From Bacteroidota bacterium (GTDB taxonomy: Bacteria; Bacteroidota; Bacteroidia; AKYH767-A; 2013-40CM-41-45): a stretch of 38,600 nt of DNA. The notes under the pieces are model-generated. The model saw only the letters and a list, made by a program, of their open reading frames with translations, ran no database searches and had not been told where the DNA came from. Positions 1 to 38,262 of this stretch are shown here, piece after piece; position 1 is the first letter of the stretch; each line of letters opens with the position of its first letter. The translations under genes and the position numbers were made by a program. The stretch lies in the NCBI GenBank assembly GCA_003151745.1, contig PLYJ01000102.1, forward strand, positions 1-38,600. The letters run 5' to 3'.

Positions 1-158
1 CAAGCTATTTCAGGAAGGGACAACTACGCTATAGGTTCAGGTAACAACAATGCGATTACAGGTAACCACCATTTAGGTTCAGGTAACTACAACGTGATTA
101 CCTGTAACTACGATGTGATTACCTGTAATCACCATGTAGTTACAGGTAATTTTTACCT
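1..158. repeat. 21-bp-period degenerate tandem array (left edge cut)
   Basis: The TA step of a GGTAAC/TGTAAC/GGTAAT motif falls at 42, 63, 84, 105, 126 and 147, exactly 21 bp apart. Units look like AGGTAACTACAACGTGATTAC. Arms are partly self-complementary: GTGATTAC at unit ends faces GTAATCAC in the following unit (around 113-133), a perfect 8-bp dyad. A more degenerate unit lies before position 42, so the array probably continues left of the window. The sequence differs from the arrays at 19034-19264 and 37908-38130, but the period is identical. No cas genes and no unique spacers are seen, so this is not a CRISPR. Function unknown. Confidence 0.8.
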
Positions 159-646
159 TGTTTCATACAATTTGTATCAAAAAACGCATACACCCGATTC
201 AATGACTTAAAATTAAGTTGCTAATTTGATGAAATTGCAAAACTTGTAGGTGGTTTGAAGTTGATTAGCTTATTTGAAAAATGGTTAACTTTAGCTTTAA
301 AAATATCTTAGATTTGTGAGCATTACCAATGCAAAGCGCAGAAATCAGTAGCCGTAGGTGTGGATAATTTCTATATTTGTCTTATTGCATAGTGATTGAA
401 TTTTCGAAAGTGCGATAGCAAATGCTGTAAACAATTACTTTTGCGACTGTGCAAGATTCAGTACTAGCAAGAATTCAGTACTGGTATAAGGCCAATTGCA
501 ACGGTGATTGATTTAGCCGAAATGTTTGGAATTACTCTAATTGCAAAGGAATAATAAAATTGACAGCACTGCTTCGTATTGAAAAAACTAACCTGATGTA
601 GAGCCGGGGCTTGCCATGTTTTTCTTTGAAGGAAAAGAAAAGAAAC
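159..646. other. Gene-free stretch between repeat array and gatA promoter
   Basis: No intact gene is visible. The only protein-like signal is a short open stretch at 468-551, listed separately. The rest is AT-rich without convincing structure. Confidence 0.5.
468..551 (+). pseudogene. Possible remnant of an XRE-type HTH regulator C-terminus
   Basis: A short open stretch bounded by stops reads roughly QEFSTGIRPIATVIDLAEM followed by FGITLIAKE. This resembles the end of small XRE/HTH regulators and antitoxins, where a phrase like 'tvidLAemfGitl' closes the domain. No start codon or N-terminal part in the same frame was found upstream. This is inference from a brief resemblance and could be chance. 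Confidence 0.2.
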
Positions 647-730: not shown

Positions 731-2170
731 TTGAGAACCTATTCCGCCATATCGCAGATTCAAAACGATCTTCAGAAAAAGAAGATTACCGTGAAAGCAT
801 TAGTAGAAGATTACTTGCGGAAGATTGAATTAAACAAACACCTCAACGCTTTTCTCGAAGTGTATGCTGATGAAGCATTGCAGCGCGCCGAAGTGATTGA
901 TAAGAAAATTGCTGACGGAACATCAGGCAGGCTTGCCGGACTGGTGATTGCGCTCAAAGACAACATTTGTTACAAGGGACATAAGGTTTCCGCTTCGTCA
1001 AAAATATTAGCGGGCTTCACATCTATATATTCTTCAACCGTTACAGAGCGATTACTAAACGAAGATGCCGTTATCATAGGCCGCTGCAACTGCGATGAGT
1101 TTGCTATGGGCAGCTCAAACGAAAACTCCGCTTATGGCAATGTGCTTAATGCAATAGATAATAGCCGCGTTCCCGGCGGATCGTCAGGAGGCAGCACGGT
1201 GGCGGTGCAGGCCGGTTTGTGTCATGCCGCGCTTGGAAGCGACACGGGTGGTTCCATTCGTCAGCCTGCATCTTTCTGCGGAGTCATCGGCTTCAAACCA
1301 ACGTATGGCAGAGTGTCCCGTTATGGATTGGTTGCTTATGCGTCTTCCCTGGATCAGATTGGACCGCTTACTAAATCTGTGGAGGATACTGCATTGCTTA
1401 CAGAAGTGATGTCGGGCATGGATGAGTACGACAGCACCTTGTCAACCAAACCCGCTCCTGTTTTTTCAAAATTTTCTGGGGGAAAAAAGACAGTACGAAT
1501 TGCATATATAAAGGACTGCCTCGAAAACCCTGGTCTCGATCCTGAAATAATAGCAAGGATGGAGGAAATAATAGCAGACCTTCGCAAAGATGGCAATACC
1601 GTGGAAGCGGTTGATTTTCCTTATCTCGATTATATGGTGCCTGCTTATTATGTGATTACAACGGCCGAAGCATCCAGCAATCTATCTCGCTTCGGAGGCA
1701 TACTGTATGGACACCGAAGCAAGAATGCAACGGACATTGACAGCACGTATATTAAATCACGCACAGAAGGTTTCGGTACGGAAGTGAAGCGGAGGATTAT
1801 GCTTGGAACATTTGTGCTGAGCGCCGGTTACTATGACACCTATTATGCAAGGGCGCAAAAGGTGAGAAGAATATTGAGGGATAAGACGACAGCGATTTTT
1901 GAAAAGTATGATTTCATACTGCTTCCTACCACTCCTAAAACAGCATTTAAGTTTGGAGCAAACCAGGATCCTATAAGCATGTATTTGGAAGATATCTTCA
2001 CAGTGCAGGCGCCGCTTACAGGAATGCCTGCCATTTCTTTGCCGCTGGGTAAGCATAGCAACGGGTTGCCTTTTGGCGTGCAATTGATGGCGAATAAATT
2101 TGAAGAAAGCGCATTATTTGAGTTTTCTAATGAATTATGCAAGAAATACGGCCTTTTTGCTCAATCATAA
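731..2170 (+). CDS. gatA: Asp-tRNA(Asn)/Glu-tRNA(Gln) amidotransferase subunit A
   Basis: This is the amidase subunit of the GatCAB complex, which releases ammonia from glutamine for transamidation of mischarged Glu-tRNA(Gln) or Asp-tRNA(Asn) in the cytoplasm. The 479 aa are full length for the family. The amidase-signature triad is visible as K76 (ALKDN), S151 in PGGSSGGS and S175 in DTGGSIRQPAS, with the FKPTYGRVSRYG segment after it. The start is TTG at 731: an ATG at 691 is in another frame and hits TAG at 727, no in-frame ATG precedes, and the N-terminus MRTYSAISQIQ fits the family. gatB and gatC are not in the window, so the complex is encoded at scattered loci. A promoter-like pair lies at 625-654. 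Confidence 0.96.
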   Translation: MRTYSAISQIQNDLQKKKITVKALVEDYLRKIELNKHLNAFLEVYADEALQRAEVIDKKIADGTSGRLAGLVIALKDNICYKGHKVSASSKILAGFTSIYSSTVTERLLNEDAVIIGRCNCDEFAMGSSNENSAYGNVLNAIDNSRVPGGSSGGSTVAVQAGLCHAALGSDTGGSIRQPASFCGVIGFKPTYGRVSRYGLVAYASSLDQIGPLTKSVEDTALLTEVMSGMDEYDSTLSTKPAPVFSKFSGGKKTVRIAYIKDCLENPGLDPEIIARMEEIIADLRKDGNTVEAVDFPYLDYMVPAYYVITTAEASSNLSRFGGILYGHRSKNATDIDSTYIKSRTEGFGTEVKRRIMLGTFVLSAGYYDTYYARAQKVRRILRDKTTAIFEKYDFILLPTTPKTAFKFGANQDPISMYLEDIFTVQAPLTGMPAISLPLGKHSNGLPFGVQLMANKFEESALFEFSNELCKKYGLFAQS

Positions 2171-14173: not shown

Positions 14174-15202
14174 TTACAAATTCACATCCGTAAAAGCTAC
14201 CTGGAGAAGAGTCTGACCAACTGCTTTGAGGGTGTTTTTATCAATGATGCTCATGTTGTCATCGTGCGTATGCCAATAGTCAGGGAAAACCCTGCTGCGC
14301 GAGTTGGCATCATATTGAATAATATCAATGGTAGGAATATGCGTCATGTTGTTGATGTAATAGTGATCGTCTATCAGCTCGCCTCCGGGGAGGTAAACAA
14401 AATAATCACTGTAACCGATGTGCGCCGCAGCGTCCCACACCCTCTTCACAACATCATTGGCATAGCTAAGTGAGTTCCTTTCCTGGTAAAACTTTGCGCC
14501 TTTAGCACCAACCATGTCGAGAAGAATGCCATACGATGCAAAATAATTGGGCACATGCGGATGCTCTGCCCAGTATTGCGTGCCGAGGCAATAGCTGTCT
14601 TTCATGATGGGAAGCTTGCTGTCCTCCTGCTGGCCCCAATCTTCAACATCTAAGAAAATAATATCTATGCCAATGCCAAGCTTCGTGTTTTGAAGATCTC
14701 GTGCCATTTCAAGAAGAATGGCAACACCGCTGGCCCCATCGCTGGCTGCATCAATAGGCTCATTCTTTCGCGCAGTGTCCTGATCTGCAAACGGACGTGA
14801 ATCCCAATGAGAACAAAGAAGAATGCGTTGCTTGGTGTCGGGATTGTACTGTGCAATAATATTTTTCGCAACCAGTCTTTTATTGTCAAAGGTTTTTACC
14901 TCACCATGTTGCATGATGACAGGAAGACCATACGATTTCAGCTTTGCAACAAGATAGTCCGCACACTTCGCATGAGCAGGAGTGCCCGGCACACGCGGCC
15001 CAAACGCTACCTGTGCTGCTGTGAATTCATAAGCTGAATCTGCATTAAAGTTAGGAACAGGAAGGGTAAGGGTTTCCGGCTTTGTGTTTACTGTTTCGGG
15101 TTGCTTTGGTTTATTGCATTCACAAGAAGAGAAAAAAATTAAGAATGCAGAATGCAGAATGCAGAATGCAACATTGGTGCTGAGAAATGGTTTGCTTTTC
15201 AT
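14174..15202 (-). CDS. M28 family lipoprotein, glutaminyl-peptide cyclotransferase-like
   Basis: 342 aa. N-terminus is a lipoprotein signal ending at C27 (LIFFSSC). The mature part is an M28-fold enzyme: ligands H132 (CSHWDSRP), D155 (ASDGASG), E187 (FLDVEDWG) and a late histidine in YWHTHDD. The short single-domain layout and the FGPRVPGTPAHAKCADYL N-terminal region fit bacterial glutaminyl cyclases, which convert N-terminal Gln of exported proteins to pyroglutamate. Pyroglutamate formation is common on Bacteroidota exported proteins because signal peptidase often cuts before Gln. An aminopeptidase role is the alternative. The signal peptide is partly encoded by a repeat dyad (15138-15233), so its residues 11-22 are atypical. 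It follows cysS by 24 nt. Confidence 0.82.
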   Translation of the reverse strand: MKSKPFLSTNVAFCILHSAFLIFFSSCECNKPKQPETVNTKPETLTLPVPNFNADSAYEFTAAQVAFGPRVPGTPAHAKCADYLVAKLKSYGLPVIMQHGEVKTFDNKRLVAKNIIAQYNPDTKQRILLCSHWDSRPFADQDTARKNEPIDAASDGASGVAILLEMARDLQNTKLGIGIDIIFLDVEDWGQQEDSKLPIMKDSYCLGTQYWAEHPHVPNYFASYGILLDMVGAKGAKFYQERNSLSYANDVVKRVWDAAAHIGYSDYFVYLPGGELIDDHYYINNMTHIPTIDIIQYDANSRSRVFPDYWHTHDDNMSIIDKNTLKAVGQTLLQVAFTDVNL

Positions 15203-15233: not shown

Positions 15234-16780
15234 TTCGACCACAACGTTCCGTCCTTACTATCCTTAATTTCGAAGCCAACTTTTAAAAGCTCATCGCGAA
15301 TCTTATCAGAGGTTGCGAAGTCCTTTTTACTCTTAGCTTCAGTACGCATGTTGAGAATAACCTGCATCAATCCTTCCAGATCATTTGATCCGGAATCTTC
15401 TTCTTTCTTTAGTCCGAGAATTTCAAATGCAAATACATTGAAAATATTCTTTATTGTTTCGAGATCAGCACCTGTGATTGTTTCCGTGCTCGCATAAACC
15501 GAATTCACAATGCGAACCGCTTCGAAAAGATGAGAGATGAGAATGGCAGTATTCATATCATCATTCAGCGCATCGTAGCATTTCTGCTTCAATGCCTGCA
15601 CATCCGATTGAAGTGGGGAGTGGGGAGTCGGGAGGGGGGAGGGTGGAACATCGGAGTTTTTTTTCTCCCTACTTCCTACTCCAAGCTCCCTACTAATCAA
15701 TTTATCTACCAGCTCAACAGCATTCAATAATTTCTGCAATCCTTTTTCTGCCGCTTTCAATCCTTCATTGCTGAAATCGAGCGTGCTGCGGTAATGCGCC
15801 TGCAAAATGAAAAACCTTATTGTCATGGGCGAATAAGCCTGCTCCAGCAATTTATGCTTGCCCGTAAACAATTCTTCCAACGTAATGAAGTTACCCAATG
15901 ACTTGCCCATCTTCTGCCCGTTGATGGTGATCATGTTATTATGCATCCAGTATTTCACAGGGTCTTTATGATTGGCTGCATTGCTTTGCGCGATTTCACA
16001 TTCATGATGAGGGAAAAGTAAATCCATTCCGCCGCCGTGAATGTCAAATGTCTCGCCAAGGTACTTAGCACTCATCGCCGAACATTCGATGTGCCATCCC
16101 GGGAAACCAATGCCCCACGGACTTTCCCACTTCATGATATGTTCTTCTGATACTTTCTTCCAAAGTGCGAAATCGGCACGGTTGTGCTTCTCACTTTGTC
16201 CTTCCAGCTCCCGTCTTTCTTCTCCCGCACCTGATATTAAATCTTCCAGCACGTGGCCTGATAGCTTTCCATAATTGTTTGTCTTATTGTATTTCACGAC
16301 ATCAAAATAGACTGAGCCATTCGATTCATAAGCAAAACCATTCTTCATGATGTCCTCAATCATCTTGATCTGTTCAATTATATGGCCTGATGCGCGCGGC
16401 TCTATGCTTGGGTTTTTAATGTTGAGTGCAGTCAGCTTTTCATGAAAGCTGTCAGTATAATATTGCGCTACTTCCATTGGTTCCAATTGTTCAAGGCGTG
16501 CTTTCTTTGAAATCTTGTCTTCGCCTTCGCCGACAACTTCATCTTCCAAATGGCCCACATCAGTAATGTTTTTTACAAAGCGCACTTTATAACCGAGATG
16601 CTGCAGGTAGCGGTACAACACATCAAACGTAATATACGGCCGTGCATGTCCAAGATGAGGATACCCATACACCGTAGGCCCGCACACGTATATACCCACA
16701 AAGCCCGGAATAATCGGCACAAACTTTTCCTTTTGTCGGGAAAGGGAATTGTGTATATATAGTGGTTGTTCGGAAATCAC
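15227..16780 (-). CDS. cysS: Cysteinyl-tRNA synthetase (with repeat-derived insertion)
   Basis: Class Ia synthetase that charges tRNA(Cys). 517 aa. Zinc ligand C33 (YVCGPTVYG), HIGH motif HLGH at 42-45, [23 protein letters not shown] motif as KMGKS near 290, and the DALR-like C-terminal helical domain ending [16 protein letters not shown]. The protein is about 30-35 residues longer than a typical CysRS because residues about 360-392 ([11 protein letters not shown] and [12 protein letters not shown]) are encoded by a 7-nt-word dyad (15612-15694) that keeps the frame open. The insertion is in the helical region after the KMSKS domain, away from the active site, and its divisibility by three leaves the enzyme plausibly functional. 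It is 79 nt downstream of the threonine dehydrogenase gene. Confidence 0.96.
15612..15694. repeat. Dyad of 7-nt words (GGGAGTC/CTCCCTA) inside cysS
   Basis: Left arm GAGTGGG, GAGTCGG, GAGGGGG at 7-nt period; right arm CTCCCTA, CTTCCTA, CTCCAAG, CTCCCTA at 7-nt period; apex around CATCGGAG and a T-run. It is wholly inside cysS and translated as a Pro/Ser-rich segment. Confidence 0.85.
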
Positions 16781-18898: not shown

Positions 18899-19318
18899 TT
18901 TCCTAATTCCCTAGACAAGCCCAATTCATAACGCTGTTTACTTAATTCCCTAAAAACATTAATCTCTCCTCAACTCATCCAACCCACTTTTAGCGTTTTT
19001 AAAGCAAAATCACCAAAACAAGGCAAATAGTGATACCAACAAAACAAATTTTCGTACGAATATTTCCATTATTGATACCAACAAAACATTTATTGATACG
19101 ACTATTTCCATTGTTCGTATGAATAAAAGTTTTATTCGTACCACTTTTTCTTTTGTTGGTATGACTTTTAATAAAAGTCGTATGAAAATTGTTGTTTTTC
19201 GTATGAACAAAAGTTTTGTTCGTATGACTTACACTTTTGTTCGTATGGAAATTTTCATTAATCATAACAATAATTATTTTGTTCTAATGACATTTTTCAT
19301 TTTTCTACAGACTTTTTT
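18899..19318 (-). repeat. ~420-bp inverted repeat element, copy A, with 21-bp-period array
   Basis: About 90% identical to 37844-38262 in the opposite orientation. Left part has two copies of an AATTCCCTA motif (18904-18912, 18945-18953) and the conserved AAAGCAAAATCACC. The core (19034-19264) has TA steps at 19034, 19055, 19076, 19097, 19118, 19139, 19160, 19181, 19202, 19223 and 19244, exactly 21 bp apart. Several units are GTAT plus a 17-bp palindrome: GAATAAAAGTTTTATTC, GACTTTTAATAAAAGTC, GAACAAAAGTTTTGTTC. Because 21 is divisible by three, both strands stay open (an 88-aa frame at 19265-18999 reading NKTFxHT heptapeptides, another on plus); I do not regard these as genes. Confidence 0.9.
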
Positions 19319-37843: not shown

Positions 37844-38262
37844 TAAAAAGTCTGTCGAAAAATGAAAATAGTCATTAGAACAAAATAATTATTCTTATGA
37901 TTAATGAAAATTCTCACACGAACAAAACTGTTAGTCATAACAACAAAACTTTTGTTCATACGAAAAACAACAATTTTCATACGACTTTTATTAAAAGTCA
38001 TACGAACAAAAGAAAAAGTGGTACGAATAAAACTTTTAATCATACGAAAAATGGAAATAGTCGTATCAATAAATGTTTTGTTGGTATCAATAATGGAAAT
38101 ATTCATACTAAAATTTGTTTTGTTGGTACGACTTTTTGCCTTGTTTTAGTGATTTTGCTTTAAAAACGAAAAAATGGGTTGGAGGAGATGGTGAGAGGTT
38201 ACTGTTTTTAGGGAATTGGGGAAATTGGGTTATGAACTGGGTTTGTTTAGGGAATTGGGAAA
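37844..38262 (+). repeat. ~420-bp inverted repeat element, copy B, with 21-bp-period array
   Basis: Reverse-complement counterpart of 18899-19318, about 90% identical end to end. The array core is about 37908-38130, followed by the conserved GATTTTGCTTTAAAAACG block and two TTTAGGGAATTGGG motifs (38207-38220, 38248-38261) 41 bp apart. The 88-codon frame at 37897-38163 matches that in copy A with 8 amino-acid differences; most nucleotide changes inside it alter the amino acid, which speaks against selection for a protein. Outside 37844-38262 the two loci are unrelated. Confidence 0.9.

Follow-up and report, generated by a model that had tools for sequence, protein, structure and literature searches.

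The window analyzed here, a stretch of 38,600 nucleotides, corresponds to contig C20 in the assembly of a Bacteroidota bacterium (4.6 Mb, 279 contigs). T9SS and BamG families were found to be present among the ten ORFs scanned in the window. At the start of the window, bases 23–165 form a 21-bp array of nearly 7 units. The fraction of self-matches within these bases was determined to be 0.64, 0.64, and 0.65 at lags of 21, 42, and 63, respectively, and 0.22 and 0.26 at the off-period lags of 20 and 22. Over lags 10–49, the highest value in 2000 dinucleotide shuffles of the same bases was 0.443, so that none came up to 0.64, and Tandem Repeats Finder reports period 21 for bases 38–149 (5.3 copies, 73% matches). 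The 21-bp array that the sequence-only reading had placed at this end of the window is thus confirmed. It contains four exact RTTACnnGTAAY dyads, all in one common 21-bp phase. The features of the window are as follows.

1–22, plus strand: terminal end of a multicopy insertion sequence (IS), which ends in ...CAGGAAGGGACA; the contig breaks inside the IS
23–165, no strand assigned: 21-bp array of nearly 7 units (lag-21 identity, shuffles, Tandem Repeats Finder)
55–66, no strand assigned: dyad core ATTACAGGTAAC, exact RTTACnnGTAAY, in phase
97–108, no strand assigned: dyad core ATTACCTGTAAC, exact RTTACnnGTAAY, in phase
118–129, no strand assigned: dyad core ATTACCTGTAAT, exact RTTACnnGTAAY, in phase
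139–150, no strand assigned: dyad core GTTACAGGTAAT, exact RTTACnnGTAAY, in phase
150–190, plus strand: tail, common to arrays with other cores (24-position pattern; BLASTN alignments)
18899–19317, minus strand: element of the same architecture with cores of approximately TTCRTAYGAA, 91% identical to 37845–38262 over 419 bp
37845–38262, plus strand: inverted second copy of the 18899–19317 element (91% identity over 419 bp), with its tail at 38133–38156

Architecture of the Elements in the Window

Bases 1–22, included in the stretch (1–158) that the sequence-only reading had described, do not belong to the array. The 21-mer from these bases has 23 matches in the assembly, all of which lie within 3 bases of a contig end, and 14 aligned IS ends part ways directly after ...GGGACA. 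The end of this IS resembles the end of an IS3-family element from the same assembly; its own transposase was not seen. The window therefore starts where the IS interrupts the array, and the left end of the array is hidden behind the IS and the contig end. A search of bases 23–233 against plasmid and phage collections gave no match at an E value of 1e-5.

The arrays at 19.0 and 37.9 kb belong to a single element that is present in two inverted copies (91% identity over 419 bp). The statement that they have no sequence similarity to the window-start array holds for the repeating units, which are unrelated, but not for the 3′ flank. The tail pattern TTTTTGCCTTGTTTnAnnnATTTT (up to 2 mismatches) was located at the same phase at 150–173 on the plus strand, 19006–19029 on the minus strand, and 38133–38156 on the plus strand. 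With up to 2 mismatches allowed, the assembly contains this 24-position pattern 8 times and the reversed pattern 0 times; an array adjoins 7 of these 8 occurrences, at the same phase. BLASTN aligns the tail of the window-start element with contigs C229, C14, C172, and C258, and gives no hit up to an E value of 0.1 between the window-start element and the 19.0/37.9-kb element. The link between the window elements thus goes through the tail pattern and these four contigs. Three kinds of core are found ahead of the tail (RTTACnnGTAAY, TTCACTAGTGAA-like, and TTCRTAYGAA), and the short tail keeps a constant phase behind all three.

The 37.9-kb copy was compared with the array on contig C230. With core and spacer position groups that were set after the profile was seen, the spacer positions 13–20 are identical in 71 of 80 comparisons and the core positions 4–7 in 3 of 44, and the other unit positions have identities from 0.45 to 1.00. 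Inside each of the two arrays the core repeats and the spacer varies; 9 of the 11 units of C230 have TGC at positions 4–6. Slippage or gene conversion would be expected to take the spacers with them, unlike a trans-acting reader of the core. A negative correlation was found in 3 of 223 array pairs, all of them C230 with its sisters, where the pairs were those detected by BLAST, which would miss strong core swaps. The array-wide core change with retained spacers is one clean case in one lineage.

A Genome-Wide Class of 21-bp Arrays

The assembly was sampled by taking the first 20 kb of each of 54 contigs, chosen by contig number among those not yet fetched; the all-N contigs C195, C215, C250, and C252 and the motif-chosen contigs C172 and C256 were dropped. 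With a threshold of 37 matches of 63 at a given lag, the 730 kb of sampled contigs yielded 38 lag-21 runs, compared with 2 for lag 20 and 1 for lag 22. One first-order shuffle of the sample gave 0 runs at each of these lags. There are 15 runs in the 90 kb within 1 kb of a contig end and 22 in the 640 kb farther in. The sampling over-represents contig ends, and thus the inside figure of one run per 29 kb is the fairer one. By extrapolation, the assembly would hold roughly 160 arrays. A BLASTN search with bases 23–400 gave 61 matches in the assembly, window included. Lag 7 is likewise enriched (36 runs), owing to separate heptamer repeats, and a few of the lag-21 runs are such heptamers. Separate heptamer tandem repeats also occur in the window at 15142–15170, 15612–15641, 23116–23146, and 23645–23676.

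Stricter thresholds were applied elsewhere, leaving 32 arrays for the open-frame analysis, 25 for compensation, 27 for RNA folding, and 20 for the first fold-back test. When lags 15–30 were compared, 21 scored best in all 32 arrays, which had themselves been selected at lag 21. The unit sequence differs greatly from array to array, with many unrelated units in a class that extends across the genome. Although ORFs of at least 110 aa cover 81% of the sample, 33 of 37 runs fall outside them. The genes around the sampled arrays are tandem in 12 cases, divergent in 5, and convergent in 1. In relatives of family f5, arrays occupy 4 of the 5 convergent gaps, compared with 8 of the 20 tandem ones and 1 of the 8 divergent ones. 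On a preference for gene ends, the sample and the f5 relatives do not agree.

One subtype forms a longer element.

L029:2911–3411 and at least 7 other loci: subtype A, an approximately 500-bp dispersed MITE-like element with inverted ends

Like the array at the window start, the internal 21-bp array of subtype A is of the GATTAC family. Its inverted ends are approximately GACCTCTTTCATAATTC...GAATTATGAAAGAGG, with no clear target duplication read off, and among these elements inverted-repeat ends were observed for subtype A only.

The dyad score exceeds that of all 60 column permutations in each of the three window arrays. In the sample, a dyad z score of at least 2 was found for 6 of 41 runs, and in relatives a z score above 1.5 for 9 of 28 runs. 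Dyad symmetry is strong in the families of the window and is not general. The sequence-only reading had proposed that period and symmetry are conserved rather than sequence, and had suggested a tabulation of all 21-bp arrays. The period part stands for the assembly and for some relatives of the same order, and in the 730-kb sample the period is fixed and the units vary; palindromicity is not fixed, and the dyad is not universal.

The eight genomes of the assigned family that were scanned contain no lag-21 runs in 249 kb. In the same order, 80 kb of genome G014 contain 19 lag-21 runs, or approximately one in every 4 kb, and 11 of these runs have 60–63 matches of 63; G017 has 6 in 47 kb. Of seven other genomes in the order, G013 has 1 run in 44 kb, G016 has 2 in 60 kb, and five have none (7–40 kb each). 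The loci concerned in G014 are L232, L233, L289, L290, and L294. Among 80 named gatA loci from related Bacteroidota, three were judged to hold such arrays (L106, L114, and L115). Between congeners, arrays do not coincide in position at the two loci compared, and they thus lack the positional conservation that a regulatory site should show. A 35-bp match beside an L236 array was rejected, since it is a 7-mer repeat.

The gatA gene of the window (731–2170) is closest to family f5 (69% to G017), and no full-length match to it was found in ten genomes of the assigned family. The stated contamination of the bin is 6.8%. Together with the affinity of gatA to f5, this makes the lineage of the window contig uncertain; bin mixing or transfer may possibly explain the placement of the gene.

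Insertion of an IS3-Family Element at the Arrays

A second IS, with the end AAGGTTTTTTTAGGAAGGTACA, encodes an IS3-family transposase, which was the top NCBIfam hit of two fragments at scores under the whole-protein cutoff. The 17-base pattern of this end was matched 27 times in the assembly (ends L243–L269), vs 1 and 0 times for the reversed pattern. By threshold, 25 of the 27 ends abut a 21-bp array and one more is borderline; the figure for random places is 1.8%. When the insertion is set at position 0 after ...AGGAAGGTACA, T is found at +2 in at least three of the first four units in 15 of 18 unit families, the families being our own merging of similar units. Random phases gave at most 14 families over all positions in 20000 trials. 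The dyad centers at these junctions cluster at approximately 7 modulo 10.5, with Rayleigh p values of 3e-4 for 26 ends and 0.03 for one end from each of the 18 families; the dyad phase modulo 21 is not significant (p 0.25).

The IS3-family element inserts phase-locked into the arrays. Insertion at a fixed phase into unrelated arrays indicates that something common to the arrays is read. A generic base profile from the IS-flanked arrays fits other arrays weakly, with a mean z score of 0.7 (n = 22). The data suggest that something reads the regular spacing of the arrays more than their letters. The IS at the window edge has a weaker preference and lies next to arrays in 4 of 17 distinct flanks that were analyzed (the assembly has 23), and two further flanks (C203 and C258) are array tails below threshold. 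In L080:1190–1301 and L215:1985–2258, a 21-bp unit (AAGGAAGGTACAATT...) was seen by eye to resemble the terminal end of the IS3-family element, and the far end bears an inverted copy.

Interpretation of the Arrays and Comparison with Known Systems

We favor, at a probability of about 0.4, the interpretation that the array is a phased row of putative protein sites in a BrickBuilt-like, noncoding repeat element. Bases 23 to ~190 would be a degenerate, IS-interrupted copy of such an element, the body of which would be a row of near-palindromic cores of ~12 bp at an exact spacing of two helical turns, followed by the tail. The units may amplify in register through slippage or unequal recombination, and some subtypes may spread as MITE-like elements. 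The cores would be phased sites for a putative dimeric or oligomeric DNA-binding protein, either a host protein or a transposase, that sits on one face of the helix. A change in the specificity of this protein between copies could have dragged the cores along. Against the phased protein sites count the absence of dyads in many arrays, the confinement of the core swap to one lineage, the 0 arrays in 249 kb from eight genomes of the assigned family, and the fact that no cognate protein was found for the arrays. The helical-phase-dependent structure that the sequence-only reading had proposed agrees with the retained period and the phase-locked IS. A half-turn sub-period is absent (match fractions of 0.25 at lag 10 and 0.24 at lag 11). 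Simple phased bending is therefore not shown, and a helical-phase structure is something that we infer.

It is barely credible that the arrays are a gene family coding for heptapeptide repeats, the alternative that the sequence-only reading had itself named as one that would overturn a DNA-structure explanation. In all 7 arrays that have the tail, the reading frame that it sets stays open throughout, with as many as 151 codons between stops, and the differences between the two 91%-identical copies in the window number 1, 6, and 9 at the three codon positions. However, open frames are no commoner than in arrays with permuted unit columns, neither in the sample (18 of 32 arrays vs 20.7 expected) nor in relatives (12 of 14 vs 11.8 expected). 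The C28 and C230 sister copies have no third-position excess (15, 26, and 22; 29, 32, and 32). Eight aligned copies of subtype A have a synonymous fraction of 0.241, near the expected 0.224, with 49, 43, and 35 changes at the three codon positions, and 5 of 10 rows contain an internal stop or an off-frame end, one through its contig ending. Coding was rejected for this lack of codon constraint in the open frames and subtype A; across the arrays, the 21-bp period is exact and there is no sign of coding constraint. A transcribed or single-stranded array might instead work as a hairpin, in the style of BrickBuilt or BIMEs, and modulate transcript ends or stability. We regard this as unlikely, although RNA folding gave z scores of –4.2 for bases 23–200 and 37880–38150 of the window, and mean z scores of –3.8 vs dinucleotide shuffles and –2.5 vs column-permuted sequences for both strands of 27 sampled arrays. 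Within-unit compensation was determined to be 82.5 (vs 55.2 ± 13.1) for Watson–Crick pairs only and 97.5 (vs 54.2 ± 9.3) with G-T pairs allowed, a value reached by 0 of 60 nulls. The G-T compensation would favor a single-stranded fold and was counted against phased protein sites, but about a third of it comes from the two arrays of L076, of which one is a 7-mer repeat and the other is register-shifted, and the window's own families have no excess (11.8 vs 5.7 ± 6.5). Order-specific fold-back was found for L188 and L079, with 0 of 100 nulls reaching either, and also for L184, which is register-shifted. A global fold-back signal was rejected when its Stouffer value fell from 7.0 to 2.4 once 42-bp blocks were left intact and arrays with a register shift were excluded, so that fold-back in constant-register arrays (n = 8) is weak, and the window arrays are negative. 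The Rfam models gave no match to bases 1–700 of the window up to an E value of 0.1.

The proposal that an IS element makes the arrays, by duplicating target DNA at its flank in 21-bp steps, draws on the 25 of 27 ends of one IS that abut an array with the phase fixed from the junction on, and on the 11 most similar end pairs of the IS3-family element, for which neither a target-site duplication nor a clean left–right pairing was recognized. Of these 11 pairs, 6 match best in the same direction. The proposal is very unlikely, as no more than 5 of the 41 sampled runs lie beside an IS end at the end of a contig, and the 5 pairs that match best in the opposite direction are as expected for insertion into one existing array. 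The main rival is a neutral or selfish origin, in which a mutational process with a 21-nt ruler, such as slippage or staggered nicking across two helical turns, copies any local sequence into minisatellites, and the period reflects mechanism and not selection. This origin is somewhat less probable than phased protein sites. Most arrays have their own unit, many are without dyads, their positions are not common to the two congener loci compared, and the 19 runs in 80 kb of G014, with 11 at 60–63 of 63, point to recent amplification. However, a neutral process does not account for cores that change while the spacers stay constant, for one tail following different cores, or for the phase-locked target of the IS.

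The preferred reading of phased protein sites can be widened to chromosomal DNA elements that are defined by period and phase and not by sequence. Very many arrays per genome would then be one-face protein platforms, with cores that switch in concert with protein specificity and with an IS3-family transposase that reads phase irrespective of the letters. We consider this wider proposal doubtful. Repeat families are usually recognized by common sequence, and here the invariant is the period, with a transposable element that reads the phase of arrays with little sequence in common. If a protein is behind the arrays, they would represent a chromosome-wide structural system in uncultured Bacteroidota that would escape sequence searches. 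If a mutational ruler is behind them, they would expose a mechanism for duplication of two helical turns.

In the passages available from PMC4596501, BrickBuilt is a minisatellite inside a MITE from Porphyromonas gingivalis, with one 23-nt repeat in 19 copies, none of which is bisected by a full-length transposable element. BrickBuilt combines a leader, short tandem repeats, and a tail, with small inverted-repeat ends. The present arrays are like it in being intergenic in Bacteroidota and in forming dispersed copies of short tandem repeats, which may have a comparable leader and tail; a tail pattern is present at the window arrays, and subtype A has inverted ends. Unlike the 23-nt BrickBuilt of the same passages, the period here is 21 in the window and the sample, the units are mostly unrelated between arrays, the arrays are more numerous, the core switches, and an IS lands in phase. 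Intergenic tandem repeats are linked to deletions in lake Planctomycetota in passages of PMC9426551, and the passages available from PMC10969869 make no mention of tandem repeats. Searches of open-access PMC papers led to BrickBuilt and to IS elements that target REPs, and gave nothing on 21-bp arrays of unrelated sequence in Bacteroidota.

A similar spacing of about two helical turns is found between the sites of plasmid iterons and of subterminal transposase-site arrays. The arrays described here have sites at approximately this distance; unlike those systems, they are chromosomal and intergenic and occur in many unrelated versions, and no replication initiator or transposase was found among the ten window ORFs scanned. 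The REPs of one genome generally share sequence. A palindromic consensus common to the whole genome, as is typical of REPs and BIMEs, is absent here, as the units differ and the dyad z score is at least 2 in 6 of 41 runs. According to the passages available from PMC1525189, IS1397 and other IS3-family elements target REP palindromes, and the present arrays are similar to what these passages describe in being intergenic palindromic repeats that serve as targets for an IS3-family element, with 25 of its 27 ends next to arrays. Unlike in REPs and BIMEs, one IS enters arrays of many unrelated sequences here, and it does so at a fixed phase.
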